From positions 1 to 64,000 of the forward strand of contig JADNRZ010000017.1 of the NCBI GenBank assembly GCA_015501605.1: DNA of 64,000 bases, written 5' to 3'. Every line of letters begins with the position of its first letter. Position 1 is the stretch's first letter. The notes below the pieces were generated by a model. That model worked only from the letters and a program-made list of their open reading frames with translations, was not told where the DNA came from and searched no databases. The stretch is from Panaeolus papilionaceus. Lineage: Eukaryota > Basidiomycota > Agaricomycetes > Agaricales. This document shows positions 24,228 through 55,252 of this stretch, piece after piece. The position numbers and the translations under genes were made by a program.

Positions 24228-24249
24228 TGTTCCTCGATCCTTCGGCAGC

Positions 24250-27981: not shown

Positions 27982-28269
27982 ATGACCGGATTCCGCATCT
28001 GCAACGGTAGCTCAATCAGCGGCCTCAAAGTTTTCGTATCCGCTTACACCAACGGCAATGACGACTGGTTCGACTTACCCAACGACTTCTCCGACGACGC
28101 AAAGTGCCACTGGAACCGCAGCGGGTGGGAGGTGATCGTGATTAAGAACCCAGCGACAGGGGACCGGAGGGGGTGGTATATGCAGACGCTTGATACGGGC
28201 GTGTTGGAGTGCACGTTTGCGGGGTTTGAGAGGGACTTGTCGTTGGGGTTGAATACGTCTGGGAGATAG
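27982..28269 (+). CDS. Small conserved protein S2, 95 aa, function unknown
   Basis: Single exon, MTGFRICNGSSISGLKVFV to GLNTSGR. It is homologous to S1, S3 and S4 and closest to S4 (33759-34046). It keeps DDWFDLPNDF, KCHWNRSGWEVIVIKNP and RRGWYMQTLDTG. It is transcribed divergently from S1. No domain is recognised. Confidence 0.78.
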   Translation: MTGFRICNGSSISGLKVFVSAYTNGNDDWFDLPNDFSDDAKCHWNRSGWEVIVIKNPATGDRRGWYMQTLDTGVLECTFAGFERDLSLGLNTSGR

Positions 28270-29096
28270 GGCATCGTAGTTGGGGGCTGAGAGAGAGAGT
28301 GTGGAGGGTTGGTGTTGAGGTGATGGGGATGTGTAGAAATTTGAATTCGAAACTATGCATTTCGTTATCGGAAATGATAAGCACTATTGAGATCGATGAC
28401 ACCGATGACTCTGGGTAAAAATGGTAGTCAGAGACAGTCAGACCCAGTATTAGGCGATATTGAGAACTGGAATGCTTCGAGGAATGTTGATGACATTCGA
28501 GAGCCTCAATCAGTGACTCCAACCACTGCCTGGACTCACTGACCGGCAATTCGTTCGTTCGGTTATATACGGTGCCCGGTTGCAAGGGCCCCGCAACCGC
28601 ATCTTTGCCAGGCGCACTAGCCTTTGATCAACAATCCAGAGTGTTGAAACCGAGCGCCGTCGCTATTTCACAGACTCCATTAATTAACTATTACAGTATT
28701 GTTAACTAGAAATTATTAAACCAGCCATGTATTATGACATGCGTCATAGCCCTCTTCTAGTGGCTCCGATTAAAGATGAATATGTTGATAGAGAGGTACC
28801 GGAATTGTGCATTCTTGTAAGTCAACGGCACTTGTTACTCAAATCGGCGGCTCAGCTGTCAAATAGAACGGAATTTTGACTACAGGTGTGTACTGAGATA
28901 CGAGATATAGGGCGGTAGATATGGTGGTTGAGGCATGGCGCTTCACATCCCCGGAGGACATTTTCAGGTTTTGCAGACGCCACGGTGAGCGTTGTTCGGA
29001 TTATGTACACAATCGCGCCTTTCGGATACGACGATTGGAGCGATGCTCATTTCAGCAAAATGCATTGGACCTATCTAAAATGGTACTGCAGAAAGG

Positions 29097-29104
29097 TATA
29101 AAAG
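29097..29104 (+). promoter_or_regulatory. TATA box of pheromone gene P1
   Basis: TATAAAAG, about 100 bp before the pheromone-like reading frame, the same spacing as in P2-P4. Confidence 0.6.
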
Positions 29105-29199
29105 CTGCTCGAAATTGGACAGTATTCTCCAGGCTCAAGTACACCCTCGAAGCAACTTCAACCATTCAGTTCAATCTCCAAGCACCAAAGCTAACTTCT

Positions 29200-29316
29200 T
29201 ATACCGCCTTCACTTCTAACGACATCGCTGATGTCGCCTCTGGCGCACCTACCACCCACCCCGCTGACTACGAGAGAGGGGGGTCAGGTACCGGCACATA
29301 CTGCGTCATTGCATGA
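29200..29316 (+). pseudogene. Pheromone precursor P1, start codon lost
   Basis: The frame reads AFTSNDIADVASGAP, then HPADYERGGSGTGTYCVIA and stop. This is a mating-pheromone precursor with a CaaX box (CVIA), which in basidiomycetes directs farnesylation, proteolysis and carboxymethylation. Aligned with P4 (MDSFTTNGLADIVSG) the initiator Met position is TAT (29200-29202), and there is no in-frame ATG between the TATA box and the frame. The only in-frame ATG (29071) lies upstream of the TATA box. It is therefore either dead, uses an unseen 5' exon, or is read from a longer transcript. Confidence 0.7.
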
Positions 29317-29674
29317 GTGCCCAATGCATACCGCGATGACCTCTGCAGTTCTATGTAAGTATGTATAGCCCGACATTTATGACCATTGCTGACAACCGTT
29401 CTCATATCACAGTGCCTTGACCTTTTCAATTGAGCGTTCAATTTATTCTGGTTGGGAGTGTTGGTCCGACATCACGACCCATGCGAGTGGACGGTGACCG
29501 CAGCGTTAGGCGGAAGTGGAGGACGATTATAATACTTATCTAGTTAAATTTTACTGTCTGTGTCCTTTCGAATCTGTGACTATATAAGCACTATGCTACT
29601 TCATTTACCCTTTTTGGCCTCCAATTTAATTTACGATGTTTCCGTTATTCACAAACGTTTGAATTGAATGTACG

Positions 29675-29719
29675 AATGGGGACCAGCCCAAACCTACTGG
29701 GTGGTGCGTTGTTGCGTGA
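29675..29719 (+). pseudogene. Pheromone C-terminal remnant P6
   Basis: Fifteen codons read NGDQPKPTGWCVVA and stop, matching the end of P2/P3 (DYPKPFAWCVVA). The flank after it also matches the 3' flank of P2 (GTAAGTAAGCTTCGCA). Upstream the frame is closed by a TGA, so only the tail survives. Confidence 0.65.
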
Positions 29720-30624
29720 GCAGCTCATGAACGATAATCCAACGTCATGGACACTGGTAAGTAAGCTTCGCAGGCTATTACGGACCTCGTGTTGTGATCA
29801 CCACCAGATTCTGATTTTTGCTACCTGCAACGTTAACACAGATCCAACAAATGTACATATATTCGATGAAACACCAACTGCAAGACAAATCTGAAGCAGC
29901 GTTGAGGATGCGGAGACAGAGGCCCCGACAGGATAGTTGTGACGTTTATGATGATACTTTTAAACTGCCATTTCAAATGCTATATTGTAACCGCCCCTAA
30001 CTTGGTCTGATGTTGTGAGCGAAGGTGATCACTCTTCGTGTTTAAGTAAGATCTACTGAGTTTCGCATATTACCCCTGAAAAAAGCGGTTATCTGTTTCG
30101 CTTGTGATATGTGGTTGAGCAGTCAAGGAATGCCGAGGGATCGTCGTTAAATGGAGGCGCGAATTTGAAGTTGTCCACAGTCACCCAAGCGCCTGTCATC
30201 ACGATTTGTATTTGACTGGGCATGGTGCACATGATGGCAGTGCATCGCGGTCGGCGGAACCTCTCGGAACCTGCTTGTGTGTTGTTTTCAGCATTTGGAT
30301 CCGGATTATGGGGTCATTAGATAATGTTGGAGACTGGACATGTTCATTCGAGCAATGAAGTCGGAGACGTGCATACAGGGGTTGCAGTCCAAGAGCCGTG
30401 GGAATCATACTTGAGAACTCGAGAGGTCAACCTGAATTCCGGATGGGACCGTCTACGATAAAAAAAAATAAGCAGCGTCGGTGGATCAATGAGAGCTGAT
30501 TAGTGACTCAGTAAAAGTCAGTGCCTTGCCTCGAGGTCAGTGTGATGACCATCATGATAATGTCGTCAACAAGACGCTAAATGTAATCATCCACAAGCTG
30601 CTTCACCAGATTATGGTATCTATC
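29720..30624. repeat. Pheromone-gene 3' flank repeat (also at 37390-38120 and 45850-46525)
   Basis: Sequence after P6 resembles sequence after P2 and P3. Examples are the GATGAAACACCAA region near 29868, TGGAGACAGAGGCCCGAC-like text near 29910, and GCGCCTGTCAT followed by GGCAGTGCATCG near 30190-30245. Pheromone genes here have been copied with about 1 kb of 3' flank. No gene is seen in this stretch. Confidence 0.6.
30616..30624. repeat. Left 9-bp target site duplication GTATCTATC
   Basis: A perfect direct repeat with 31594-31602, immediately outside the terminal inverted repeats. Confidence 0.85.
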
Positions 30625-31593
30625 CAGGCTCCAAAATGCAGCCCCTAGCCACGCACTATGAGTTAATAATTACTAGAGCAAGAGTGCAATAAAATAATTT
30701 ATATGAGGGAGAGCCAAACATAAGCCAAACAAAGTTAACGAACTCGATAGTGCGTGGTAGGGGCTGCCACATTTGCTGTCAGGTGACCCAAAAAAATATT
30801 GATTGCACCTAAGCTAGGGCTACCGAATTCAGGTCCCCTTCGCCCGACATCACAGAGGGTCACAATTCAAATTAAAAGTAATATCTAGACAGGGGCATTA
30901 ACATAGACTATGACGCGATAAAGCCAATGTTAATTCAGTACCCTACACCGACGCCTCCAACTGTCAATCACAATAGATTCCCTGTATCTACAGAAGAAAG
31001 TACCATATGGACAGAAACCTCCATCTGTTCTCTTGTCCAGCGCAAATTCGGAAAACGGGCATGCTGGTACCAACTGAGTGTCGCTCTTGCTCTTCACAAC
31101 ACAAAGAAGGATGTAATAAGATGTGCACCTACAGGAGCAGGAAAAAAACTGTCATTCTGGATACCCCTGCTTATGGCTCTGGAAGATGGAAGAGATGTCA
31201 TGACCATTGTAGTTACACCTCTAAACCTGCTGGGAAAGCAGAACGAGGAAACATTTTGCATTCACTAACGATGACTGCACTCGATCTGGATCGATTGTGA
31301 TTGCAATTCAAGACAAGACATTGGTTTTCAACTTGCGGCCTTCAACGGGCCGTATCACACAATTGTCACGTCGGGCGAAGGGGACCTGAATTCTGTAGCC
31401 CTAGCTTAGGTGCAATCAATATTTTTTTGGGTCACCTGACAGCAAATGTGGCAGCCCCTACCACGCACTATCGAGTTCGTTAACTTTGTTTGGCTTATGT
31501 TTGGCTCTCCCTCATATAAATTATTTTATTGCACTCTTGCTCTAGTAATTATTAACTCATAGTGCGTGGCTAGGGGCTGCATTTTGGAGCCTG
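30625..31593. mobile_element. Mutator-like (Pack-MULE-type) non-autonomous element
   Basis: A 969-bp element with near-perfect 224-bp terminal inverted repeats (30625-30848 and 31370-31593; one mismatch seen, near 30829) starting CAGGCTCC. It is flanked by a 9-bp duplication. Long TIRs plus a 9-bp duplication are typical of Mutator-like elements. Each TIR contains its own inverted repeat (GCAGCCCCTAGCCACGCAC and its complement), so a single arm can fold. The interior holds a helicase fragment but no transposase. Confidence 0.8.
30927..31268 (+). pseudogene. RecQ-type helicase fragment inside the Mutator-like element
   Basis: The frame reads KFGKRACWYQLSVALALHN, CAPTGAGKKLSFWIPLLMAL and VVTPLNLLGKQNEE, which are helicase motifs Q, I (Walker A) and Ia of RecQ-like proteins frequent in Agaricomycetes. 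The Walker A Thr is Lys (GKK). Motifs II-VI are absent. It is a captured, inactive fragment of at most about 114 residues. Confidence 0.7.
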
Positions 31594-31602
31594 GTATCTA
31601 TC
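31594..31602. repeat. Right 9-bp target site duplication GTATCTATC
   Basis: Direct repeat of 30616-30624. Confidence 0.85.
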
Positions 31603-31659
31603 ATGATCACAACAAACTCAACATCAATTCAACCCATAATATTTTATTCAAACCATGCT

Positions 31660-31950
31660 TCACCGGAGGATTGGAGTTTCGTGTATAATATCCGCCCTGG
31701 ATTGAGCGGAAGAAGCAACATCGTCAAGATACAACCAACAAATATCCCCAACTTCCTCACGCAAGGCATCAGCCACGCGGCGTTGGTGTATTGCCGGAGC
31801 GTTTTTAATTCCCATAGGCATTACAACCCATTCGAAAAGTCCATAAGGTGTTGTAACAGCTGTTAAAGGGATGTCTTCCTCCCTCATTTTTGTCTGGAAG
31901 AAAGAATTGGTCATATCGATAGCAGCGAAAAATTTAAGAACACCAGATTT
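31660..31950 (-). pseudogene. Ty3/gypsy reverse transcriptase fragment
   Basis: The frame reads [19 protein letters not shown], then [19 protein letters not shown] and WLYLDD, which are RT motifs of gypsy elements including the YxDD catalytic pair. Only about 90 residues remain, cut at the Mutator-like element side and at the boundary of duplication copy B (31950). Confidence 0.8.
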
Positions 31951-32177
31951 ACCTCCTCATTGCAAGTTAGTTCAAATCCTCGCACATGAGCAAATTAATA
32001 CAAAGGAATGTATTTCATATTCACATGTCTGACAGTCAGAATCTCAGAAGGACATTTTATCTGTACAAACTTTTGTATCGAGAGAGAAGTGCAACACGAT
32101 CGAAACCCGAATTCCATTCGCCATCCACAGCACCTGCTACTGCGCGTGTCTGAACACCAACGAACACAGTCATTTAT

Positions 32178-32591
32178 CTAGGTGGTGTTGACCAGGGGGA
32201 AACGGGACGAGACGTGAGTGCAGACTGTAGTGGATAGCGGACAAGGGGCGAGTACTGTGACAGCGACGAGGTGACGAGGGGAAGGCGAAGAACCATGGCT
32301 TCTAATAGTAACAGACACATTAAAATCCACAGTCATATCCTTATCGAACCCCAAAAATGTGCACTCCACCACACCCGAGTCGAAAGTCTGCATATACCAC
32401 CCCCTCCTCTGCTCCGTTTTCGGATCGTGGATCACAATTACTTCCCAGCCATTACGCCCCCAATGGCACTTGGAGTCATTTCCGAAGCTGCTTGGCAAGT
32501 CGTACCAGCTGTCATTTCCGCCGGTGTAGCTGGATACGAAGATTTTGAGCCCCTCGAGGGAGGTGCCATTTTTGATGCGAAATCCTGTCAT
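32178..32591 (-). CDS. Small conserved protein S3, 137 aa with extended C-terminus
   Basis: Single exon starting MTGFRIKNGTSLEGLKIFV. The first 92 residues align with S1 (SWYDLPSSF, KCHWGRNGWEVIVIHD, VVECTFLGFDKDM). Where S1 ends NVSK-stop, S3 reads NVSVTIRS and runs on for about 42 residues of unrelated sequence, so the ancestral stop was lost. The function is unknown and the tail may be non-functional. Confidence 0.65.
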   Translation of the reverse strand: MTGFRIKNGTSLEGLKIFVSSYTGGNDSWYDLPSSFGNDSKCHWGRNGWEVIVIHDPKTEQRRGWYMQTFDSGVVECTFLGFDKDMTVDFNVSVTIRSHGSSPSPRHLVAVTVLAPCPLSTTVCTHVSSRFPLVNTT

Positions 32592-33758
32592 GATAATATC
32601 GATGGGGTTGTGTGTTTATTGTTTCGAACGCTCTGCTATTAATTATTAAATAAAAGACCGTTTAGAATTATGGTTTGAATACCTGTGGATGGGGAGGTAG
32701 TTCGATCTGTCCTTCCAGACATCATTCTCGCCTAGTCTTTTATCACCCCCTGCGACAGCTGGGAAACGAGACGGAGACACGGAGACTTCCACAGCTTCTA
32801 AAGAGTCTCCTCTCTGAACCCGACTTTCATTTCCGATGTTTGAACAGGTGTCAAGTGAAGCCTGGCGCCAAATTGTATTGCATCCGATTCTAAGGAAACC
32901 TGATGACCCACGCCACAACATCATCTGACACTACAGTGGGGAGGAAATCAGTAATACATACCAGTAACAGCAAAGCCATGATAACCCCACCTTCAATTCA
33001 ATGGTCTTAAATGAAATGTCAACCAGAGCTTCTGGTGAAATAACCGAGGTTATCTTGTGAGGGTTTGCGATGCTAATTATGTTTGGTTGAATTTATATGG
33101 CTCGAATCATCATCGTATCGATCTAGTATGGTAACAAATGTCGCTCACTTGAATCAACCCTTTGAAGTGTAGGAGGAGAGAGGACGCGAGGGAGATGTTC
33201 ATATTTTGGTATTTGTGGAGCACTAATTTGACGCTATATTAAAGGCGGGGTGCAAGTAGACTCGCACGGTGGCCATTCACGGGGTCCAAAAGTTATGTTC
33301 GAGAAGGCACTGCTCAATATAATTAGGGGTCATGAGGACTCTGCTGAATAGGGCCTTGCTTTTAATGAGGCGTTCCTTGAATACAAAATCTATTAGTATG
33401 TTGGATTCTTATCAGTCACCACCTGGAAATCAGAGCAACACTGATCATGAGTGGCCTGGAAAACTAGTATGGCTGGCGTAGGAGTTCCTTCGACAGTGGT
33501 GAAATACATCGGAAATGAAAGCCAGAATAGAAGCACCAACCCTATCCAAACTGTCTTGCAATTCAGTTACTCCAGAACACTCTCACCTGTAGCGCAAGAC
33601 GCATAAATGACCGACAGAGTTAGTGCTGGAAGAGTAAAACCACCAACCTATCTTATAGCCTTCAGGTAACGACTCAATTATCTTTCCCAGAATTTCTTCA
33701 TTCGAATCTTACAATAGCCCCTAGAACCCAGATAACCAACACCACCATAAAAACCATC

Positions 33759-34046
33759 ATGACTGGATTCCGCATCTGCAATGGCACCTCAATTAGCGGT
33801 CTCAAAGTTTTCGTATCCAAATACACCAACGGCAATGACGAGTGGTTCGACTTACCGAACAACTTCTCAGACGACTCCAAATGCCACTGGAACCGCAACG
33901 GGTGGGAGATTATTGTGATCAAAAACCCACAGACGGGCGAGAGGAGGGGGTGGTATATGCAAACGCTCGATAACGGCGTTTTGGAGTGCACATTCACGGG
34001 GTTCGAAGGGGATATGTCGTTGTCGTTGAATACCAAGGGGAGATAG
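33759..34046 (+). CDS. Small conserved protein S4, 95 aa, function unknown
   Basis: Single exon, MTGFRICNGTSISGLKVFV to LNTKGR. It is nearly the same as S2 and divergent from S3 across 1.17 kb. It keeps DEWFDLPNNF, KCHWNRNGWEIIVIKNP and RRGWYMQTLDNG. Substitutions relative to S2 are mostly conservative, consistent with a maintained protein. Confidence 0.78.
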   Translation: MTGFRICNGTSISGLKVFVSKYTNGNDEWFDLPNNFSDDSKCHWNRNGWEIIVIKNPQTGERRGWYMQTLDNGVLECTFTGFEGDMSLSLNTKGR

Positions 34047-34587
34047 GTGGTTGTGATTTGTGGGCTTTGAGAACGCGGAGGGTTTGGTGATGAAGGTGAT
34101 GGCGACATGTAGAAGCTTGAATGAGAAACTAAACATTTCCTTTCTGTTGATGTATTACCTACCGGAGTCAAAAATGATATGCACTATTGATATAGATAAC
34201 TAATGGCGATCCTCAGTAAAAATGATGGTCAGGCTCAGTATTAGGTGGTTGAAAAGTGAAATACCTCGAGAGATGACCATACCCGGATGTGTTCATTCAT
34301 GCTGAGGTGATGAAGATTTGGCCCAGTACAGTCAGTCGTGATTCACCATTCGAGCCTCGACGAGTGACCTCATAATTCAAGGACATGAGGTCACTGACCG
34401 GCGATTCGCTTGTTCGGTGGTATGATGCCCAGTTGCAACTCTGCAACAGTATTTTTGCGAAGTACACTAGCCTTTGATCAACGATCCAGAATGCTGAAAC
34501 CGAGCGCCGTCGCTGTTTTGCGGACTCCATTTATTGACTGTTACTGTTAGTTTGCAATCAGTAAGTCAGCTATGTATGTTACGCATT

Positions 34588-34599
34588 ATGATTGCATGA
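34588..34599 (+). pseudogene. Last codons of a deleted pheromone gene
   Basis: ATGATTGCATGA here aligns with the end of P1 (TGCGTCATTGCATGA) and the following flank aligns with that after P1 (TGYCCAATGC...), while everything upstream in the pheromone is absent. The segment deleted corresponds to about 28745-29304 of copy A. Confidence 0.5.
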
Positions 34600-35109
34600 C
34601 TGTCCAATGCACGGCGCGATAACCTCTTCAGTCCTGTGTAAGCATACGTAGGCCGACATCTATGACTATTGCTGAAAACAGTTTGCGTACCACACAGTGC
34701 ATTAACTTTTTCGATCGAATATTTAATTTATTCTAGTTGGGATGGTTAGTCTGACATTAACACCCATGCGACTGGACGGTGACTACAACGCTAAGTGGAA
34801 GTGGCCATGGAGGATGGTCCTTATCTAGTTAAAGTTTATTGCTGTGCCTTTTCAAACCCGTTTGTATCAGCAGTACTCTACTTAATTTACCCTTTTTAAC
34901 CTCAACTTCAATTTAGGGTGTTTTCGTTCTTGAACGTTTGAATTGACCAGACGATGCTTGATGGGGTATTCATCTGAACACGTGGCCGCCACAAGCGCCC
35001 GTTGGCCGGTTTACGGGTTATTTGCATCAACCACCGGCCGTAGTCCTTATGCCCGTTTCCTGTGTATTCGAATGTTGCGACTTTCTCCTATGTACCCTAA
35101 AATGCTGCA

Positions 35110-36200
35110 GGTGTCAACTGCAAGACGATAACCTCCCTGGAACCTGTGAATATTCTCATCAGCCATGATTTAGGCGTTCCTGCATTCCAACGGAATGCAC
35201 AACATCGATTAGAGAAATACATAGTCCCTTGAATACACTCTTCAAGTTTATCAGGTCAAAATCCTCCTGGAAAGATAGACTATTGACGTTTAGTGCAGTT
35301 ATGCGAGCGAGAATCACGCTTCGTTTGTCAGGGTGACAGCGATACATCCGCGTCTGCCAGAAATTGTTAACTCTTGAGTAGTCTCTATCTCCCTCAGAAC
35401 TGCTGCCAATTGCGTTACTACCTCTGGCCTTTGTGCTCTGACTCCACCTTAATATGTTTATTATCTACCAGGCGCGCATTTTAATGATAATAATGATCAA
35501 TTTGTATATCTAAGTATGAATACAAAACATAAACAGTATAGAGAGGTATAAGTACGAGTGCATAAATGCAAAGAAAATTGAGTCGGGGTATTATTAAGCG
35601 GCAGACTAGTCCGCCGCTTACAAAGGGGACAAACAACGGACCAAACAAACGCGTAAATGAGTGTAACAAAAACGTCCCTTAAGAACAAAAGCCTAAAAAG
35701 GGTCTCGTAATATCGGTACGTGTCGCAATCCACTTAAATTGTACACTCCGCATTGGCATTTTGACCTTCGATTATCTAGTAGCATTTCAGATCAAACATA
35801 AAGCAAATAAAACATCTGAAATTCTGCAACGAAGTTGATACTTGGATGAGGGCCATGACCTGCATAGCAGTCTTGGCATTTTCCGAGGCCCTTCGAATGC
35901 CGGCGTTCGGGAGGCAATGCTCCTGTTGCAATTCAACCTGAGTTCCTCAATTAGAGCATGCCATTTTTGGGATGCCCAACCATTGGACGATTACGACTAA
36001 ACGCGAAGCGCTTTCGGACAGGGGAAGCATCGAGTATTCTCCAAACAAGAGCACACAGTGGGGAATAGCTGCACAAAATGCGTCCGGCTGATGAGGCAGT
36101 GTATTCACACACTGTTAGCAAACAAGAGCATGCAATGGGTAAAAACCGCACAAAAAAAAAGGCCAGAACATAAGAACGAGTCCCAAAGAGGCCTCGTAAT
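35110..36200. other. Intergenic, no gene seen
   Basis: Short ORFs only. No motif, tRNA or repeat that I can support. Confidence 0.45.
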
Positions 36201-37176
36201 GTGGGGTGGTCTGGGATGGGCGCCTATGATGTATACTATCGAGAATTATGATCTGTGTTATTTTATGGTTCATTCGAGATTGAGTTATAAACGAGTATAG
36301 CCGCTTCTCGGGCATAAAACTGTTGACAACAATCCACAACACTGGTACATTATTGAGTTCATAGCATGACACATATCGTCCTGATGGAGAGTCATAGTAC
36401 AACTCAGGGTCGAGCTAATTGGAGCAGAATCATAGTTTGCCACTAAATATGCAGAACGAATAATTGGAGTGACTACCTTAGATGCCAGCTGTGGTTGGAC
36501 GCCTCCATTGGGTCCAACTGCCGACTCGGAATGATAGTATAACCATTGGGTGACTTTCCGTAGCATCTACATAGGATCCTAGATTTCGGTCTTAAACATT
36601 CAAATTTGGAGCTCGCCGAGATCCCCATTCCTAATGGGGAAGACTGGGGAAAATCTACTACCAATCTCCAGACTTTAGTCTGTTCGAGGGGTCAGGGCCC
36701 TTCTTCCAAGTTGAAACCTCCATCTCAAACTCTTTTCGTGTACGAAAAGCGTAATTCCTTGATGCCCCTCGACCACTTTTGATATTCTGCCCGTGTTGAG
36801 CCGCTTGAGCTCGATCTTCATCAGATTCTTTTGATTTACCTGCTGTCTTGTCTCATAACAGCTGTGGTGGGCCCTATCATCGTTATTGTCACTCGCCATC
36901 ATACTCTGATTCATCAACTGCAAATGACAGTAGCAGGGACCTGAGAAATGAATGTAATTTACCCATTGAGTGTATGCTGTTCCTTCTGGAATGCGGCGAC
37001 ATACGGGCAACATAAAACGAATTCCCGGAAAGAGTTGATGAGGGCGAAGTGAAAAAATGTTCTAGCATTTTGAGGACTATATTCAATAGACTTGGGTGAC
37101 GAGAAATATTGAATGTGCTCTCGAAATGAGCTCCATAAAGCGCAAGCACAGCCCTCAGGATAAGGCCTGAGGCGGG

Positions 37177-37184
37177 TATAAAAT
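37177..37184 (+). promoter_or_regulatory. TATA box of pheromone gene P2
   Basis: TATAAAAT, 100 bp upstream of the ATG at 37277. Confidence 0.65.
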
Positions 37185-37276
37185 CCCTCGAAACCTTTCG
37201 TACTATGCAGAACACTCCCCAAGCACCTTCAAGTTATCGAAACAAGTACAACACCTACCACCACACTCTGATCCCA

Positions 37277-37387
37277 ATGGACACTTTTACCAATGACGCT
37301 ATCACCGACATCATTGCTGACTTGCCTTCCGACCTCCCTGCCGATCATGACTATCCAAAACCTTTCGCGTGGTGCGTTGTTGCATGA
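37277..37387 (+). CDS. Mating pheromone precursor P2, 36 aa, CaaX CVVA
   Basis: An intronless ORF starting MDTFTNDAITDIIADLPSD and ending PKPFAWCVVA. Length, acidic N-terminal half, an aromatic/charged stretch before the end and a C-terminal CaaX box fit basidiomycete a-factor-like pheromone precursors. These are farnesylated at the Cys and processed to a short lipopeptide recognised by STE3-type receptors. The start at 37277 is preferred over the in-frame ATG at 37205: the latter sits only about 25 bp from the TATA box and the extension is closed by a stop in the sister gene P3. P2 and P3 differ at Ala14/Ser14. It lies on the left arm of the inverted repeat. Confidence 0.88.
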   Translation: MDTFTNDAITDIIADLPSDLPADHDYPKPFAWCVVA

Positions 37388-38399
37388 GCAACGTCCCCCA
37401 TGGCACATGAACGGCAATCCAAAGTAATGAACACTGGTAAGTAAGCTTCGCAAGTCATTACGGACCTCGTGTCATATCACCCCCAGACTCTGATTTTTGC
37501 TCACTGCAATTTTATCACAGATCCAACAAATCTAAAATATATCTGATGAAAAACCAATTGCGAAACAAATTTGAAGCAGAGCTGAAGATGTGGAGACAGA
37601 GGCCCGACCCGAGAGTTGTAATATTTATGATGATGCTTCCGAACTACCATTTCAAATACTATATTGTAACCGTCCCTGACATGGTCTGATGTTGTGAGGG
37701 GAGAATACTAAGTAACATCTACTGAGTCTCGTAGTATATTACCCCTTGATAAAACGGTCATTTGCCCCACCTGGGCCCGGGACATGTGGTCGAACGGCTA
37801 AGGAGTGGCGAGACGCTGTTGTTGGATTAAGGCTCGAATTTGTCCACCAGTCACTGCACAAGCGCCTGTCACTATGACATCCGTAGCTGACTTGGCGTCT
37901 AGTGCACATGGCAGTGCATCGTGGTCGACGGAACCTCTCGACACCCGCTTGTGTATCGTTTGCAGCCTTTGAATTCGGAATTCGGAATTAGATAATGTTA
38001 AAGACTGGATATTGTCATTCGAGCAATGCATACAGGATTGGAGCCCAACAGCCGTGGGAATCATATGGAGAGCTCAAGAGGTGTCAGCCAGAATTCCGGA
38101 TGGGACCGTCTAAGATCAAGAAAGATAAACAGCGTCGGTTGTATCAATGAACGCCCGTAGGCGACTCAGTACCAGTCAGTGCCTTAGATAAAATCGACTC
38201 CATTTTAGAACTACCTATCGATCCCATTTGCCTGTCTTTGACGCCCCCAGGGTGCGCACCGTGACGATCATTTCATTCTCGGACTGGTGCAAGCCGAAAT
38301 ACTACCTGGAATGCTCGACGACGTTAAAAAATATATCGATAACTTCGAGGACGACGGCATATCCTGTGTTCCTGAATGAGCATTCCGCTCTCTGAATTA

Positions 38400-39763
38400 A
38401 ACTGAGCCTATAGCCCGGTGTTGAGACAAAACCCAATCAACCGCTTGTCCTATTCGAAAAATCGACGTTTCTACCTTCTCGAGGACAATGAAAGACGAAA
38501 GGTAATACTGAATAAATCTATAGCCTACAAAAGGAGAGGGTTAAGCTCATTAGCGCATGTATGCGCAGCCCATGCTAACACTAGCAGACACGCCCACTTG
38601 TTCGTGCGAGCTCTCGTCACTTGAGGATGAGCACGGTGTGGTGAAGATATAACGGTACTTATCCCATTCCAATGTAATTGTGAGGTGTGCCATTGACACG
38701 CCCGTTATCGTCCAACGCGAATGAAGCACTTTAAGTCTAAATAGAGCATCGACATCTAAAGGTTCATCGTGCGGAAAGAAGTTACTACTTAGACTCCTAG
38801 CGATGTGAACACTAAAGATCATATTTAATATACATCCCTCGTTCAAATGGCGACGTCCACCGCTATGAGTCGACACTCACCACGAGGCACCCACTTATTA
38901 GCGCCTTCATTGACAACTCCGTTAAGCGAAGGCTGCTGCGGTATTTCAGCAATCACACAAGCGCTCTCTGGGCGCTCCGCTTGCTTAAGGCTCAGAGCAT
39001 ATGTCTATGTTGAGGGCACACGTCAAGGTTAAGTTAGGTTCGTAGCCTCGTGGAATAGTCTAAGAACTCTCATACACTGAAACGACATTGAAAAGCCTGG
39101 GGTGACCCACTCCATCGCCTTGGGGTGCCAGCTGGCACTGTGAATTAATACAGTTTCTTTGAATTAAATTTGAAGGAAGGTAAATAAAATATGTCAGTGA
39201 GAGCATCTAGCTTCAAGCTGTAATTCAAAGATGTCTCCGAAAAGCGGCGATATGTCAGATTTTAGCATGATTTCGTGGATCATGTGAGATAGGAGCGCTG
39301 TTAGAGTGCGTGATGGGTGGGTTGGGGGTGTTGTAAAAAATGGGACAAAATGTTAGAAAAATAAGACGGACATTAGCGTTGGGTGTGTTGTTGATATTAT
39401 TGAAGAAAGAAAAGAAATAAACACGAAGAAAGTAAAAAATAAAAAACAAGGGAGGGAGGGTGGTGTGATTACCTTGGCAACGAGACTAGCATGAATGATT
39501 TCATCAAATTCGTTCACACGCTCGGACACTGCGAGAGGTGTGGTTGGTTGATTCCCATTCCTTTTCCTTTCCTTCTGACAGACGACGACCACTCCACTCA
39601 CACAGCGCAGAAGTCCTCCTCTCCGTCTTTCTCCTTCTCTTTCCCCTTCCCCTCTTTTTCTCCTTCCTGTCACTCCGCAACACTCTGCGGTCACATTCTT
39701 TTTGTCTGATTCTTAAAACACACCTAACTACACACTTTTCCGGCTTTTGCTGAATATTAAACC
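38400..39763. other. Intergenic, no gene seen
   Basis: No supportable coding signal. The last 250 bp before the membrane-protein gene are C/T-rich (pyrimidine runs at 39560-39670), as in fungal promoters and 5' leaders. Confidence 0.45.
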
Positions 39764-41934
39764 ATGGGTTTTGGACATATGCAAGCAAAGCACAGACATG
39801 GTCATCCCAAACGTGCTGCTGAGCCTATTGTGCTCGAAAAGCGAGATGGTGAGCTATACCCCCACCCTAAAATCATAGTATTCACATTGACCAAAAAAAA
39901 AAAACAAAAAAAAAAAAAAAGCGTCCAGCTGCTCAGGCAATAACCCCTACGTCGCCCCATCCATGAACGCCATCGTCGACAGTCTCCAACCCCTCACCAT
40001 CACCTGGAACCCAGCGTGCTTCTCCGACGTCTCCAAGCTCAATATTGTCCTCTCAGCCGCAAACGAAGACATCCCCAACATCCACGCCTACACCAACATC
40101 GACCCCGCCTCGGGGTCCTATACCGCCGAACTCAAACCACGATGGTGGGGCGCCAAACAGTCTCAGCAGCTCCAGATCGTCATTTTGCCAGCCGGAGACC
40201 TCATCTTCCAGTCTAAATTCGTCGCTGGGCCCATTATCACCGCTACCTATACCCCTCCTGCTGATGGAAGCACCCCAGCTGCTGCTGATATGAACAAAAC
40301 CGGTGCAGATGACACTGTCACCGTCGTTGGTGGTATCCAACAGTCGGGTGGTGTCACACCAGGGGGCAAAGCAGCTGCCGTCTTGGTTCCGCTCATTTTC
40401 ATTGGCTTGGCTATTGCCGCATTCATCAAATGGAAACGCTCAAAGAGACAACAAAAATCCAAAGCATGGACCGAAAAAGTCGATCAGCGCATGTCGACTA
40501 TCTCAGTCGACTGGAAATCCGTTTCAGCTGCTGGCGCGAATGCTGCTATCCGCAACTCGATGGCGGTGGGCATGCGCGGATCTCGTACGTCCTCTGCGTT
40601 CGCATTTGGTGCTATCAGGCCTTCTAGTACCTTTGCTGTGGAGGATAATACGAGTATGTCGGAGAAGACCCCTGGTGCGCGTACCACCACCGGTGTGGGG
40701 CTGCGTAATCCCAATGGTGCAGCCAACGCCTCTACCGAGCGTGTTTCTCGTGTCTCATTCGCCCCTGATACTCGCGTCTCTCGTGTTTCGTTCGCTGATT
40801 CCAGGCCAAGTGGTGAATCCCGCCGTACCCGCGCTTATCACAGCGCATATATCCCACCGGTCCCTGCTTTGCCTGGCAACAACAACGACGATGAGACTTC
40901 TTCCAATGATGATAACTCGAGCGGTGCGATGTCTCCCCGACAGACGGAGGGCGCTATGGCGCTCACACCTGAGGCTATCCGTGCGAGGATCTCGCATGCG
41001 AGAGAGGATACGAGGAAGGATTCGATGGATGAGATGATGCCCGCTCTTTCAAGTATGCACCCTATTCCCTTTTTTTTTCACATCGGTTTTCTCACCCCAC
41101 TTTTTTCTAGTGATGCGCACTGGTAACGATCCCACATCCCCCGACGACTTCCTATTCCATCAAAACTCCACCAATGCTGCCGCTTCTGTTCCCGCCCCTC
41201 CCGCTCCCACCTACATCGCCCCACACCACGGCAGCTCTGCCAGCCCCAGCCCGCTCAGCCCCATGACTCCCATGAGCCCTGTTATGGACGCCATCCCCGC
41301 TAGCGTCATGTCCCCTGACGAGATGCTGCGCGCCTACGCCGAACGCAAGAAGAGCATGAACTCGCCCATGTCGCCTATCCGCACCGAGTCGCCTGTGCTC
41401 CCGCTCCCTGGCAGTGTGATGTCGCCTGATGACATGCTGCGCGCGTACGCGGAGAGGAAGAAGAGCGTGAATATGGGTGCTAGTGGGCATGGGAGTGTCG
41501 GAAGTGGAAGTGGTGGTATGCGGGCGCTGTATAATGCGACTGGACAGTTGGCGCAGACGACGCAGCAGTATCAGTACGCTGAGGACGAAGAGGCGGCGTA
41601 TGCGTATAGTCACCCCGAGTCGACGTATAGCACTGCGAGCGCCACGGCATACGAGTCGTCGGACTATAACAGCGCGTATAACGATGCGTATGCGGCGGTG
41701 GGGTTGGGGTATCCTTCGCCGATGGCAGCGACGGGCAATACGCCTCTGAGCCCGAAGAATGTGAATAATCCGTTCTTGCCGAGTGGGCCTGTTGAGGCGA
41801 GCAAGTATCCGTTTGGACACCACCCGAATGGGAGCATTGGGGTTGGAGCCTATGGGGGCGCCAAGTATACGATTGAGGATGAGGGTGATGAGGAGGGCGG
41901 GGGTATGGCGGGGAGAGGGGTGTATAGGGGCTAA
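39764..41934 (+). CDS. Single-pass membrane protein with Ser-rich cytoplasmic tail, 679 aa
   Basis: Exons 39764-39848, 39922-41052 and 41111-41934 join in frame. The N-terminus (MGFGHMQAKHRHGHPKRA) is basic, without a clear signal peptide. An ectodomain-like part (YVAPSMNAIVDSLQPLTITW, about residues 35-160) precedes one membrane segment AAVLVPLIFIGLAIAAFIKW followed by basic residues. A long low-complexity tail comes next, with paired motifs VSRVSFAPDTRVSRVSFAD and a duplicated motif MSPDEMLRAYAERKKS / MSPDDMLRAYAERKKS. The layout resembles fungal plasma-membrane glycoproteins with serine-rich tails, but no named family is assigned. The first intron carries a poly(A) tract close to its acceptor. 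It lies between the two arms of the pheromone inverted repeat. Confidence 0.8.
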
Positions 41935-43100
41935 GGAGAGTGGCTAGTCAATTGGGGATTTGAATCCCCTTTTTTTCGTGTTGATGATGCCCACATGCCT
42001 ATGACTTACGCCCTTTTGTGTCCTCTTTCCTGTTGATGCCCATGTTACTTATGATTCCTCCCTCATCTATCTGGTCCGGGTTTTTCCGACCACTCACTCT
42101 TCACCTCGATTTTTGTCGTGTTCCATTGCTTCATCTCATCCTCATCTCTGACTCGTCCATTGTGTGTTTGATATTATTGTTCCGATGTCTTATATTATAA
42201 TCCCCCCTGCGTCGTCTTTTGGCTTCCTCCATGTCCTCGTGTAACTCGTCTCCTCTTATCGTCGTCGTTTGTTGACGATTGATTCCGTTCCTTTTGCGTT
42301 GCCTTTAAAATCCTACTTTTGCCCGTTGAAGTTCAGTGTATATATACCATCCAGACCATCCATATCTTTCTCCTCTATATCCGACCCACCCATCCCCATT
42401 CTACCTACCCCCATTTTGTGTTCATCATTCGAGGCTTTTACCTTTTTTTCATATTTGATTCAGGTCCTCGAGACTCACGCCAACCTTGAAGCGTGTTTTC
42501 CATTTCACACGTACGCCCTCCGTACACATTACATTTTTTTGCTTCTTGAATGTCGTGATCTGGATCTCGAGTGATTGGTTTTATCTTTATCTTTTCAGTT
42601 TGTACAGTTACCTTTTTTTATTACCCCCTAGCGTTCTTGTGCGATTTGAGTAGCATAGTATAGCTTAGGGTGGTGCAGTATATACCTTTTGCGATTACGT
42701 TTTAACTTTTATTTGATTATTGTTATGCACTGTATGCGAGGCGAATAGGGGTAGGGGGGACTTTTGATTGAATTGGTGAAATGATATTTATTTTGTTATG
42801 CGCGGCGGTTTAGGTTGGAGGGTGAAGAAGATTGCTTTTAGTAGTGCAACTTGAAGGGAATGACGGAGTCGGAGGAGATAGAATTGAATGCACCCAGCGT
42901 CGTTACGATGTGTGAAATTAAATCGCAAGCATCGTAAAAACGACGGGCGCCTAATGACATGTCATGTCACACTCACAATTTCAATGGTGTGCCCATGTGT
43001 GTTATTTATTACGAGGCCTCGTTGGGACTCGTTCTGATCTTCCCTGTCAGTGTTTATATGCCACTTTTCCCTATTGCATGCCCTTGTCTATTAATAGATT
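41935..43100 (+). other. 3' flank of the membrane-protein gene, pyrimidine-rich
   Basis: T/C-rich sequence without a supportable gene, probably 3' UTR and spacer. 43100-44200 likewise shows no gene. Confidence 0.4.
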
Positions 43101-44278
43101 CTGGTCACACTGCCTCGTGATGATGATGAGCCTGGCGTAATTCGTGCAACCCTTTCCTATTGCATGCCCTTGTTTGGCATGAGTCAAGTTTTCCACAGTA
43201 CTTCGAGTCTAGGGATTTCCATGTGGGGTGCTATGTAAACATGCATTGATCCCCAATCATCCTCAAACGCAAGCATTATAAGCCAAGATCGGAAGAGCGA
43301 AGTTACAAACGACATTCGAAAGGATAGATTGCTATTCAAAGCGGGTACAACATCAATTTGTAAACACTATAATTCTCTGAAATATCCACAGAGGTCTTTC
43401 CCTCGAACTGTCCCTGCCCGTTCAAGTTACATACTCTGTCGGCTCACCATCATTCACCACCCCATGTGCATACTTTTACAATGCCCCTTTTGAGCCCGTA
43501 TGTGCCTTGAACAGGTTTTAGTTACTCAGGTGTGATCAAATTATAGCGTATACATTGATATTACAATTGTAACCTTCATTCCGAGCGGACTCACCGCTGT
43601 TGGCACCGTCATTTTTACTTGATGTCTTCACATGTACCGGAGAGTTAGCACAATGATTACTTGTGAGAAACAATAACGAGCGACGCTGAGGCCAACTGTG
43701 CCCATCCTGCTCTGCTGATGGGTACTGCTTCTCCCTTTTCTTCGACAAAACCCTTCATGAATATAGATGATCGCCGTCGAGGAGTAACATTGTATGTTGG
43801 AAGGAACATCTCGGTCTACGCTCCCAATGCGTTGGGTATTTATCGAAGAAGTTCCCGACTTCGTGCATCGGGCGCTTGATCATGATGCCACGCTCGTCGA
43901 CACAAGTGAGGGAGTGTCATATGTAACCTCGGTCTGTGCGGTCATAAAATCCGTGCAAGCTGTTTCGAAATAGCGAATTTATCTTTCATTTACAAATAAC
44001 CATAAAAATTGAGGGTGGGTATTATACACGAAGCTCCGATCATGTGGTGAAGCATGATTCGAATAAAATATTTTGCTGTTGAAGGATATCATGATCTCGT
44101 AAAACAACTAGGTGATTAGAGTTGGTGTCCCGTTGATGACTTTATCATAATATCACACGGCCCTCGAACTAATGCAAACCTCCCAATCCCATGACGTTCT
44201 TCATAGAGTGACACATTTCGCACCACCGGCTCCCCCGTAGTCTTCATCGACGGCAACGTTCGGGGACGTTCCAGGGCC

Positions 44279-44284
44279 AATATC
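44279..44284. repeat. 6-bp target site duplication AATATC (left)
   Basis: Direct repeat with 45202-45207 around the TIR element inside P5. Confidence 0.8.
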
Positions 44285-45201
44285 TATGGTGCGCCTTCTG
44301 CACATTTATTACCTATGACCCAATGTTTGATGTATCAGTATGCAGGCGCTATCTACACCCTATCGTAGCGTTGGGGGTGGCACAACCTTCGAAGTTGTGC
44401 CTAATTTCCCGAACATTTGTGGCACAACCTTCGAAGGTTGCGCCTAATACCTCAAATATTTGTGGCACAACTTCGAAGTTGTGCCAAAACCCGTCGAGAT
44501 GATGCCACAACTTTCGTTCATTGGCACAACCTGCTGTTAATTCTTCGAGAATTGTGACACAGCTTTCGAAATCTTGGCACAACTTCGACGAAATTCCTGT
44601 AGACCATGGCACAACTTAGATTGATGATTGAAAATTAGCCCGAAAAACACCTCAAATCCTGGCACAACTTCATAAATGAGGCACAACCTTTCAGATTTTA
44701 CATGAAATCGGAAAATAAAGCAATGATTAAAGGGATACCTGTACTTTTAGCATGCCAAATATTTTTAAAATTATGCTATTTTGGAAATACTCTTTGATTT
44801 CGAGTGGTGATTTTTAAGGGTTATGCCATAATTCTTGTTATTTTGGCACAACTTGGCATGAATACCCTTGGGTCGCACTATGATTCTCGAATATATGGCA
44901 CAACCTGTGACAATTATTCGAAGTTTTACCACGATCCTTGAAGAATTAAGCACAAGTTGTGCCAATGAACGAAAGTTGTGGCATCATCTCGACGGGTTTT
45001 GGCACAACTTCGAAGTTGTGCCACAAATATTTGAGGTATTAGGCGCAACCTTCGAAGGTTGTGCCACAAATGTTCGGGAAATTAGGCACAACTTCGAAGG
45101 TTGTGCCACCCCCAACGCTACGATAGGGTGTAGATAGCGCCTGCATACTGATACATCAAACATTGGGTCATAGGTAATAAATGTGCAGAAGGCGCACCAT
45201 A
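44285..45201. mobile_element. Foldback/MITE-like TIR element, 917 bp, inserted in P5
   Basis: Terminal inverted repeats of about 245 bp, essentially perfect, start TATGGTGCGCC. The repeats contain several short palindromes around TTCGAA (GGCACAACCTTCGAAGGTTG type), and the unique centre is about 425 bp without coding capacity. The flanking duplication is AATATC. It shares its outermost bases with the element at 47128-47802. No transposase was found, so it is non-autonomous. Confidence 0.8.
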
Positions 45202-45207
45202 AATATC
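45202..45207. repeat. 6-bp target site duplication AATATC (right)
   Basis: Partner of 44279-44284. Confidence 0.8.
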
Positions 45208-46526
45208 GGCGATCTCGTCGTGAGTGAAGCGGTCCATCGGGTGATTAGATGTAAAGCGTTGAGGTATTTGCCTTGAGTTCCGCAGAATAGGCCCTGATAG
45301 CGGTTGAATTTGCTTTGGTTGCTGAGGAATCCATCCGAGTGTATGTCTCCAGTACATCTGCTTGTCCTCCCTACATCTCAAAGTGTTGGCGCAGCTCACA
45401 ATTCGCAAAGGACATTGCATCCCACAGAAAATAGGCGCACCATTCTCATCGCTGTCAAACGCAATGCAAGCCACCATTTCTAACTCGTGCATTTCAGCGC
45501 CCTACACAATAGCGACCAATTAATGGGGTCGATATTTCAGCGGAAATTTTCGGTATTACTGAAGGCCAACTATCGATATGTTTTTTTAACGTTATCGAGC
45601 ATTCCAGGTAGTATTTCGGCTCGCGCCAGCCCGAGAATGGAATGATCTGTCACGGTGCGCTCTCGGAACGTCAAAGACAGACGATTACGATAGATAGATA
45701 TATCCAAAATGGAGTCAGTTTCATGTAAGGCAAGGCACTGACTTGTACTGAGTCCCCAACGCTGCTCACCTCTCTTTATCTTAGACGGTCCCATCCGGGA
45801 TTCAGGTTGGCACTATCGAGTTCTCCGAGATAATTCCCACGGCTCTTCGGCTTCTACCTTGTATGCATGTCTCCGACTTTATTGCTCAAATGACAACGTC
45901 CAGTATTTAACGTTATCTAATGACTCCATAATCCGAATTAAAACGCTGAAAAAAACATACAAGCAGGTGCCGAGAGGTTCCATCGACCTCAATGCACTGC
46001 CATGTGCGCTCGATGCCAAGTCAGCTACTAATGTCACATCGACAGGCGCTTGTGCAGTGACTGGTGGACAAATTCGGGTCTCAACCCAACAACAACGCCT
46101 CAACACTCCATAACTAGTCAAGCACATGTCCCGGGCCCAGGTGGGGCAAATGACGGTTTTTTAAGGTGTATATCTAATATACGAGACTCAGTCGATGTTA
46201 CTTAGTATTCTTCGCTCACAACATCAGATCAAGCCAGGGACGGTTACAATATAGCATTCGAAATGGTACTGTTTGAAAGCATCATATTAAATATTACAAC
46301 TTTCGGGTCGGTCCACTGTCTCCACATCTTCAGCTCTGCTTCAAATTTTTTCGCCATTGGTTTTTTCATCCGATATAGTTTAGATTTGTTGGATCTGTGA
46401 TAAAATTGCAGTGAGCAAAAATCGGAATCCGGTGGTGACACGACACGAGGTCCGTAATGACCTGCGAAGCATACTTACCAGTGTTCATTACTTTGGATTG
46501 CCGTTCATGAACCATGGGAACGTTGC

Positions 46527-46637
46527 TCATGCAACAACGCACCACGCGAAAGGTTTTGGATAGTCATGATCGGCAGGCAGGTCGGAGGGCAAGTCAGAAA
46601 TGATGTCGGTGATAGCGTCATTGGTAAAAGTGTCCAT
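46527..46637 (-). CDS. Mating pheromone precursor P3, 36 aa, CaaX CVVA
   Basis: MDTFTNDAITDIISDLPSD to PKPFAWCVVA: the inverted copy of P2, with Ala14 changed to Ser and otherwise the same predicted protein. The mature C-terminal peptide should be identical to that of P2, so the two are probably redundant. The upstream in-frame extension seen at P2 is closed here by TAG, which supports the MDTFT start. Its TATA box is at 46728-46735. Confidence 0.88.
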   Translation of the reverse strand: MDTFTNDAITDIISDLPSDLPADHDYPKPFAWCVVA

Positions 46638-46727
46638 TGGGATCAGAGTGTAGTGGTAGGTTTTACTAGTTTAGATGACTTGAAGGTGCTTGGGGAGTAT
46701 TCTGCATAGTATGAAAGATTTTGAGGG

Positions 46728-46735
46728 ATTTTATA
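46728..46735 (-). promoter_or_regulatory. TATA box of pheromone gene P3
   Basis: TATAAAAT on the minus strand, about 91 bp before the ATG, in the same context as at P2. Confidence 0.65.
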
Positions 46736-47121
46736 CCTGCCTGAGGATTTATCCTGAGGGCTGTGTTTGCGCTTTATGGAGCTCATTTCGAGAGCGCATT
46801 CAATATTTCTCGTCACCCAAGTATACCGAATACAGTTCTCGAAATGATAGAACAGTTTTTCATTTCACCCTCATCAACTCTTCTCAGGAATTCATCTTAT
46901 GTTGCCCGTATGTCGCCGCATTCCAGAAGGAACAGCATATACTCAATGGGTAAATTCATTTCTCAGGTCCCTGCTACTGTCATTTGCAGTTGATGAATCA
47001 GAGTATGATGGCGAGTAATAATAACGATGATAGGGCGCACCACAGCCGATATGAGATAAGGCAGCAGGTAAATCAAAAAGAATCTGATGAAGATCGAACT
47101 GAAGCGGATGGACACGGGCAG

Positions 47122-47127
47122 AATGTC
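47122..47127. repeat. 6-bp target site duplication AATGTC (left)
   Basis: Direct repeat with 47803-47808. The unoccupied sister site on the left arm reads AATATC once. Confidence 0.75.
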
Positions 47128-47802
47128 TATGGTGCGCCGTTTGCACTTTTATTATTAGGCCCAAACATTTTAAATACTTTTGTAAACTAATCTAAACTTT
47201 TGTAATAACTTGGTGATTCTAAACATTTATTGGGCGCTTTTAATATTATTTAAACATTTCTTGGGCATTTGACAGGTTCTTCCAACATTCCTCGAGCGCT
47301 TGATCCGTTGTTCAAACATTTTATGAGCGCTTATGACAAAGTATCAAACATATTCACCCAATTCGATGGCTCTTCAAACATTTTCTGAGCGCTTAGAAGG
47401 CAACATGTCATCTACACTAACAAATGAGAGCGCTTAAAGACTAAATTTCTGAATTCATGCTAATGATTTCATTATAGTCTACATAATAAAAACTACATCA
47501 AAATTCATTATCTTTCTAAAAGCTTAAGCGCTCAAAATTTTCTGCACATTTGTGTAGGCGCGCAAGAAATGTCGAGAAAAGTAGACAAGTTTTGAAAGAT
47601 GTGATGTAAGCGCCCAAAAGATGTTTAGAGATTGTTCAGAAATAACTGAAATTTCTCAGTAGACGCACAAAATGTTTGGGAAAACAATGAAAGCGCCCAA
47701 AAGATGTTAACATTTCACAGGTAATTACAAAAGTTCAGTTTAGGTTTTAAAATTACTTGAAATGTTTAGGACTAATAATAAATGTGCAAACGGCGCACCA
47801 TA
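47128..47802. mobile_element. TIR element, 675 bp, same family as 44285-45201
   Basis: Termini TATGGTGCGCCGTTTGCAC with imperfect inverted similarity continuing about 130 bp. The interior is rich in repeated GAGCGCTT and AAACATTT words. It has a 6-bp duplication AATGTC and an empty counterpart in the other arm of the inverted repeat. There is no coding capacity. Confidence 0.75.
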
Positions 47803-47808
47803 AATGTC
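47803..47808. repeat. 6-bp target site duplication AATGTC (right)
   Basis: Partner of 47122-47127. Confidence 0.75.
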
Positions 47809-48788
47809 AAAAGTGGTCGAGGGGCATCAAGGAATTACGTTTTTCGCACGCGAAAAGAGTTTGAGATGGAGGTTTCAACCTGGAAGAGGGACCCTGACCC
47901 CTTGAACAGACTACAGTCTGGAGATTGGTAGTAGATTTGCCCCACTCCTCCCCATTAGGAATGGGGGATCTTGGTGAACTGCAAGCTTGAGTGCTTAGAA
48001 TTAAAATTGAGGCTACGGGAAAGTCACCCCAAGATGATCTCATGAGTTGGCAGCTGGGCCCAATGGAGGTGGCCAACCACAGATGGCACCGAAGCTCATT
48101 ACTCCATTCATTCATTCTGCATATTTGCCTGGGGTCTATATAGTTGAAAACTATGACTCCGCTCAGATTAGCTTGACCCCGAGTTGTGCTATAAATGTAT
48201 ACTAGGTTGTGGGCCATGACCTTTGCCCTGCCATGTAGGAGTCCTATGTTCTGCCCTTTGATGGAAAATGACATGCCCTTTAATGCTGAATGAACGTCGC
48301 TACCGCTCGAATGCTTGAATGACTCAAAGGTTGACATCTCTATGTATTTTTATCTGATATGATAACCTCGAGGTCACATGTAAGAGAAATTTTCATAACA
48401 GAGAAGGCGGGATAAAGAACAACTCACCTGAGGGGGCTCATAAGCGGGACGATGTGCGTGTTGTGCTATGAACTCAACAACGTGTCGCGGCTTGAGGCCA
48501 AGAGTTCTATTCACTGTGAACAGCGATTATCTCGTTTATAACTCAAGTTCGGAGGAACCATAGAATAACATAGATCATAATTCTCCATAAAATACATCAT
48601 AAGCGCCCACCCCAGGCCACCTCACATTCTCAACTCCGCTCCACAATTTCAGGTGTTTCATTTGCCTTAGGTCGGCCCTATAACCCCATCGGAATATTGA
48701 ATGTCAAATTTTCAATACAGACTATACACTCTAAGTGGACTGTGATGCATACCAGTATGGTGGGTGTAATTCCAGTTAATAAGATGGT

Positions 48789-48911
48789 TCATGCGACGAC
48801 ACAGTAAACAACATTTCCGGAACCAGAGCCCTGTTTCTCTTGGTCAGAGGGGATATTGGAGGGAGGACCAGAGACAATATCGGCAAGGCCGTTGGTGGTG
48901 AAAGAATCCAT
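48789..48911 (-). CDS. Mating pheromone precursor P4, 40 aa, CaaX CVVA
   Basis: MDSFTTNGLADIVSGPPSN, then GSGSGNVVYCVVA and stop. The MDSFTT start and the Gly/Ser-rich stretch before Tyr-CaaX are typical of Agaricales pheromone precursors, and P4 is closer to P1 (GGSGTGTYCVIA) than to P2/P3. The start at 48911 is used because the in-frame upstream ATG (48998) overlaps the TATA box itself. The mature peptide is expected to differ from that of P2/P3. Confidence 0.87.
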   Translation of the reverse strand: MDSFTTNGLADIVSGPPSNIPSDQEKQGSGSGNVVYCVVA

Positions 48912-48996
48912 TGGTAAATATATTGTCTTCTTGGTGCTTGTAGTTGACGAACTGATTGAAGAGGCTGGTTTGGGGAGTGAGGCTAACTTTCCAAGC

Positions 48997-49004
48997 ATTT
49001 TATA
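48997..49004 (-). promoter_or_regulatory. TATA box of pheromone gene P4
   Basis: TATAAAAT on the minus strand, about 90 bp before the ATG at 48911. Confidence 0.65.

Positions 49005-54205: not shown

Positions 54206-55252
<1,047 letters not shown>

Follow-up and report, generated by a model that had tools for sequence, protein, structure and literature searches.

A receptor-less array of pheromone-like precursor genes in Panaeolus papilionaceus, probably of the non-mating type and separate from the B locus

Here we report an array of pheromone-like precursor genes in the agaric Panaeolus papilionaceus, located within a stretch of 64,000 nucleotides (the window) that forms the first 64 kb of contig JADNRZ010000017.1, designated C9 (1,163,879 bases), in a 50.85-Mb genome assembly of 71 contigs (GCA_015501605.1); the other contigs of this genome are labeled in the same way, with positions given in kb where short. 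The array most likely represents a receptor-less cluster of non-mating-type pheromone-like genes and not a flank of the B locus, because C9 carries no match to the STE3 receptor family, the B locus lies on contig C8, and seven more receptor-less precursor genes were found in the genome. An initial annotation of this DNA had proposed that it was either one side of a B/PR mating-type locus or a non-mating pheromone cluster, and these results fit the second reading. Genes of this kind are known, and functionally unexplained; the new element is the architecture, a three-copy unit with complementary losses, and the size of the array and the Trp-type precursors P2 and P3 are further points of interest.

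Precursor genes of the array

The array contains three intact precursor genes (P2, P3, and P4), a related frame that lacks a start codon (P1), and two remnants, in addition to the interrupted frame P5 described below.

29097..29103 (+): TATAAAA box of P1
29206-29313 (+), mapped as a part to 29316: P1 (AFTSNDIADVASGAPTTHPADYERGGSGTGTYCVIA), precursor frame without a start codon, end ..TYCVIA
29681-29719 (+): P2-type C-terminal scrap (DQPKPTGWCVVA)
34591-34946 (+): 3' remnant of a P1 copy, 75.7% identical to 29308-29667
37277-37387 (+): P2 (MDTFTNDAITDIIADLPSDLPADHDYPKPFAWCVVA), intact, 36 amino acids (aa), CVVA end
46527-46637 (-): P3, differing from P2 by A14S alone, intact, 36 aa, CVVA end
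48789-48911 (-): P4 (MDSFTTNGLADIVSGPPSNIPSDQEKQGSGSGNVVYCVVA), intact, 40 aa, CVVA end

The three intact genes, already recognized in the initial annotation, were confirmed as a non-random feature of the sequence: the strict pattern MDxF..C[VIT][IV]A occurs three times in the window and in none of 300 dinucleotide shuffles, and frames with any Met start and a CaaA end number four in the window versus a shuffle mean of 0.18 (maximum 2). P2, P3, and P4 fall in the range of short CaaX precursors (30-100 aa), and P1 and P5 are broken. The N-termini of the intact precursors read MDTFT or MDSFT, and a charged pair lies some 8-15 residues before the CaaX end (EK in P4, ER in P1, and DH in P2/P3). 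The ends predicted for the mature peptides are G-rich in P4 and P1; that of P2/P3, DYPKPFAWC (FAWCVVA with the CaaX box), is unusual and of a Trp type. A TATAWA box begins 100 (P2), 98 (P3), and 93 (P4) bases 5' of the ATG, in agreement with the previously claimed distance of about 90-100 bp. Within 70-170 bases upstream, a range chosen after these distances were known, TATAWA precedes 12 of the 14 intact genes scanned in this genome (all those found except the B-locus gene at C8:834.5 kb), compared with 4.8% of 18,226 window positions.

P1 shares 53% identity with P4 (E = 3.9e-6) and is built like P2-P4, yet the position expected for its ATG holds none. Two in-frame Met codons, at 28921 and 29080, were rejected as starts because both precede the TATAAAA box at 29097, so the earlier description of P1 as start-less holds. 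Of the C-terminal scraps, counted previously as at least two, the P2-type scrap at 29681-29719 was identified; the second that could be identified, at 34591, comprises only the last codons and the 3' flank of a P1 copy.

At E-values up to 10, PF08015 is the sole Pfam family listed for P1-P4. A profile built from 11 precursors of this genome matched 23 of 42 candidate database proteins at E up to 10 (best 1.6e-14). Seven of those 23 carry the PF08015 label, including a Coprinopsis cinerea protein named 'fungal mating-type pheromone' (E = 3.7e-3), whose end, GGGSGNGAYC, is the C. cinerea non-mating consensus given in PMC8305134. P2, P3, and P4 are not among the 23 proteins (none has 36 residues and none is 100% identical to P4) and thus appear to be unannotated in the protein database. 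In eight of 11 database precursors examined, a single protein contains two similar G-rich cores with CVV or CVI after each, in contrast to the one core of the P. papilionaceus precursors identified in this genome. An alignment of 12 precursors, made without P1 and without the B-locus precursors at C8:828.7 and C8:834.5 kb, the latter two without an MDxF start, has invariant Met1, Asp2, Phe4, the Pro before the charged stretch, the Cys, and the last Ala.

STE3 receptors, the B locus, and other receptor-less precursors

A whole-genome search with the STE3 family model (PF02076) returned 20 matches, which are confined to C8 and C70 and were grouped into six genes at C8:585, C8:589, C8:825, C8:837, C8:841, and C70:220 kb. 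No match was found on C9, C1, C12, C19, or C67, which extends to the whole of C9 the absence of a receptor noted earlier; at the contig level, at which linkage was judged in this one assembly, no STE3 receptor is linked to the array. Judged by its gene content, the segment C8:825-844 kb is the canonical B/PR locus, with three receptors and five pheromone genes in the following order:

C8:825-826 kb (-): receptor
C8:826.8, 828.7, and 834.5 kb (+): pheromone genes
C8:837-838 kb (-): receptor
C8:838.9 kb (+): pheromone gene
C8:841-842 kb (-): receptor
C8:844.1 kb (+): pheromone gene

Three of the five B-locus precursors have the MDxF start. About 825 kb and 371 kb of C8 separate the locus from the ends of that contig, and the array sits 29-49 kb inside C9, so the array could not directly border the B locus even if the two contigs adjoined; no telomere repeats were found in the stretches at both ends of C8 and of C9. 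No pheromone-type frame was detected in the next 20 kb of C9 past the window, nor in stretches of 10-20 kb around the receptors at C8:585, C8:589, and C70:220 kb. The C8:589-kb receptor shares 76% identity with a Panaeolus cyanescens protein and 57%, over 85% of the query, with one from C. cinerea, a conservation of the kind expected for a non-mating receptor.

Seven further intact precursors are encoded on STE3-free contigs (C1:72, C1:558, C1:566, C12:456, C19:125, C67:1035, and C67:1364 kb); together with the five B-locus genes and P2-P4 they bring the intact precursors to 15, a count of those found, as searches with such short query proteins can miss members. Five of these seven orphan precursors end in GGGTTYYC, to which the G-rich ends of P4 and P1 are related, and two in GFVM[YF]C. 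At the DNA level, the window has no similarity at E 1e-8 to the seven orphan stretches or to the STE3 stretches.

Duplication, insertion, and partial decay

One DNA unit, present in three overlapping copies of which one is inverted, makes up the array. A small gene of about 95 residues (MTGFRI..GLKVFVS.YTNG..), here called gene X, moves with the pheromone unit and forms two divergent pairs in copies A and B.

26520-30527 (+): unit copy A, with gene X pair, P1, and P2-type scrap; blastn identity of 74-77% to 32313-38185 in four pieces
26523-26798 (-) and 27982-28266 (+): gene X pair of copy A
30609-31608: fold-back element between copies A and B, arms of about 246 bases, 97% alike
32313-38341 (+): unit copy B, with gene X pair, 3' scrap of P1, and P2
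32316-32591 (-) and 33759-34043 (+): gene X pair of copy B
44284-44201 (-): P5 end piece (..VDEDYGGAGGAKCVTL; terminating ..YGGAGGAKCVTL at 44201)
44285-45201: fold-back element splitting P5, arms 94% alike, AATATC at either side
45237-45202 (-): P5 start piece (MDRFTHDEIADI)
45571-48911 (-): unit copy C, inverted, with P4 and P3; P5 lies downstream
47128-47802: element between P3 and P4, ends like those of the P5 element, AATGTC at either side, breaks the alignment of B and C

Copy C matches copy B at 84.9% over 36781-38341, the segment around P2/P3, at 76.7-77.5% over 36198-36786, and at 67.6% over 35710-35851. The alignment of B (35710-38341) with inverted C (48758-45571) stops at 48758, and P4 is therefore assigned to the unit from its position. 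In copy A, 14 bases separate the 3' flank of P1 from the P2-type scrap; the equivalent interval of copy B spans 2.4 kb and contains the start of P2. The P1 promoter and almost the entire P1 frame fall within 576 bases of copy A, for which copy B has two flanks separated by 14 bases. Copy B also keeps a piece of the P4 3' flank, without P4. On the simplest reading, the ancestral unit would have been a gene X pair followed by P1, P4, and P2, and would have been copied twice; copy A would then have lost P4 and most of P2, and copy B both P1 and P4, with P4 and P3 retained in copy C. In this scheme of complementary losses, each difference is provisionally assigned to deletion or to insertion. Nothing in the genome outside the window matches the 1.56-kb P2 segment of the unit, and the only other match to gene X lies at C32:11167-11433. 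Outside this genome, the sole relative found was P. cyanescens CVT24_004966 (69%), and the one copy searched against Pfam had no family; identification of gene X with a known protein was abandoned on these grounds, and no function is claimed for it.

The claim that P5 had been split by a transposon stands as to the insertion, since a fold-back element lies inside the frame, but the pheromone status of P5 is less sure, because its end is the unusual CVTL, no TATAWA occurs within 200 bases upstream, and neither its start nor its end piece matches the Pfam pheromone model. P5 is thus the weakest member of the array; its end piece is G-rich. The splitting element has three near-full copies on C34, C35, and C56, which are 96-98% alike, and is probably young. 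It shares similar ends (TATGGTGCGCC..GGCGCACCATA) and 6-base flanking repeats with the element at 47128-47802.

The initial annotation had described the array as expanded and decaying. Expansion is evident from the duplicated unit, and decay applies to P1, P5, and the scraps, but P2 and P3 share 108 of 111 coding bases, with one of the three substitutions altering the protein. Their flanks are 86% alike, with differences at 180 of 1314 aligned positions when the TATA-to-ATG interval is not counted (binomial 8e-5, Fisher 3e-4). Decay is therefore only partial, the P2/P3 coding sequence being better conserved than its surroundings. An independent case that points the same way is provided by the orphan pair C1:566/C12:456 kb, which encodes identical peptides with two silent differences in 114 coding bases inside a 3.1-kb segmental duplication that is 88.4% alike with gaps counted (binomial 1e-4).

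Candidate role, alternatives, and neighboring genes

Receptor-less pheromone-like genes have been described in Agaricus bisporus, C. cinerea, and Laccaria bicolor (PMC8305134), precursors of similar type have been reported for Pycnoporus (PMC4101180), two pheromone homologues of Amanita phalloides lie apart from the receptors of that species (PMC10598064), and the authors of a Flammulina study expected such genes (PMC3140503). Like the non-mating precursors described in PMC8305134, those of the array are short, end in a CaaX box, and lie away from STE3, and G-rich ends are shared as well (P1, P4, and the GGGTTYYC end of five of the seven orphans). They differ from that description in that three intact and two broken genes are gathered here in one 20-kb array made by duplication, and in that P2/P3 end in PKPFAWC, which is not G-rich. 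With the B/PR locus of tetrapolar agarics, represented here by C8:825-844 kb, the array shares the precursor type, the CaaX end, and the MDxF start, but it has no receptor and is unlinked on the assembly. The Brl receptors of Schizophyllum commune (brl1-4) offer a mirror image: there, receptors without adjoining pheromone genes are described as orphans with unknown ligands, for which self-pheromones acting in self-avoidance were named as possible candidates (PMC8161036), whereas the array consists of putative ligand genes. What the non-mating STE3 receptors of mushrooms bind, and what they do, is described as unknown in PMC8161036 and PMC8305134. A literature search, mostly of open-access papers and without the Laccaria bicolor B-locus paper, found neither this array nor any receptor-less pheromone unit in multiple copies described for an agaric, which is no proof of novelty; it also yielded no paper joining Panaeolus, mating type, and pheromone receptor.

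By analogy with the known chemistry of the family, the precursors would be cut near the internal charged pair, the CaaX cysteine would be farnesylated, and the last three residues would be removed and the new end methylated, giving a short lipopeptide that may be exported to act on an unlinked STE3 receptor. With less confidence, the receptors without an adjoining pheromone gene, at C8:585, C8:589, and C70:220 kb, would be the likeliest receivers, and the function may be self-sensing or control of growth instead of mate choice. With 15 intact precursors and six receptors, this one genome presents a defined peptide-receptor matrix to test, and the three-copy unit with its complementary losses illustrates the multiplication and decay of such genes away from the mating-type locus.

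Several observations weigh against assignment of the array to the non-mating class. The PF08015 scores of P1 (19.2), P2 (13.6), P3 (13.5), and P4 (19.0) are all below the cut-off of 22 bits, and P1 was the sole window gene listed in a whole-genome search with this model at E up to 10; the cut-off is not decisive, however, because it also excludes the B-locus precursor at C8:826.8 kb (14.4) while admitting another B-locus precursor (34.8) and two orphans (24.6 and 25.3). The non-mating class typically has a G-rich end, which is found in P4, P1, and the P5 end piece but not in P2/P3. Conversely, the precursor at C8:844140-844238 is G-rich and orphan-like (EKGGGGGTTWYC; ..EKGGGGGTTWYCIIA) but lies 2.1 kb from a B-locus receptor, so a non-mating role does not follow from a G-rich end. 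Relatives of the C8:589-kb receptor bear names such as 'pheromone B alpha 1 receptor', which do not separate mating from non-mating receptors, and its class is therefore a prediction from conservation. The test of P2/P3 conservation is weak when limited to the nearest flanks with the promoter included (55 of 633 positions differ, p = 0.011), and gene conversion could also explain the alikeness of the two genes. Farnesylation, export, receptor activation, and the pairing of peptides with receptors are predicted only. The C8:844-kb precursor is also a possible source of the dispersed G-rich pheromone genes.

A more far-reaching proposal, which we regard as tentative and unlikely, is that the array supplies ligands for the long-orphan non-mating STE3 receptors and that P2/P3 form a second, Trp-type class captured from the mating-type repertoire; if true, a single mushroom would use a receptor-free locus to make both its self-signals and a signal resembling those of the mating type. 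Distinctly unlikely is the explanation that P2/P3, as pheromones of the mating-type class, were displaced from the B locus and still act on a B-locus receptor or its alleles, with P1/P4 as ordinary non-mating genes. Among the 15 intact precursors, Trp directly before the Cys occurs, apart from P2/P3 (FAWCVVA), only in two B-locus precursors (MWCTIA at 826.8 kb and AWCIIA at 828.7 kb), which speaks for displacement. However, no receptor is linked to P2/P3, and one would expect self-incompatibility to be lost if a self-activating copy were functional. Compared over the whole precursor, P2 is 21-36% identical to three B-locus precursors and 17-35% identical to six orphans, so that no clear kinship emerges. 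Less probable again is a decaying relic in which every member is on its way out and none is used: the start-less P1, P5 split by an element with 96-98% copies, the scraps, and the complementary losses agree with it, but P2, P3, and P4 are intact with TATA boxes, and the P2/P3 coding sequence is more conserved than the flanks. That the array is one side of the B/PR locus, as the initial annotation had allowed, with the receptor just beyond the window, is highly improbable and largely refuted: the window does start at a contig end, and pheromone and STE3 genes normally cluster, but the receptor-pheromone sets lie over 370 kb from either C8 end, the STE3 matches are confined to C8 and C70, and the 20 kb that follow on C9 hold no pheromone-type frame.

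Other features of the window were recorded alongside the putative non-mating cluster. An inverted duplication of about 3.2 kb (81-83%) brackets the whole array, and a gene for a Psg1-like membrane protein lies between unit copies B and C.

4544-8218: large open reading frame of 1224 aa with a CHAT domain and a weak TPR match
21221-24458 and 61799-64000: inverted duplication, the second part continuing in L044 to about 1154
22183-22629: open reading frame inside the inverted duplication, without a Pfam match
39891-41123: Psg1-like membrane protein gene
54250-54999 (-): GH11 xylanase with a CBM1 domain

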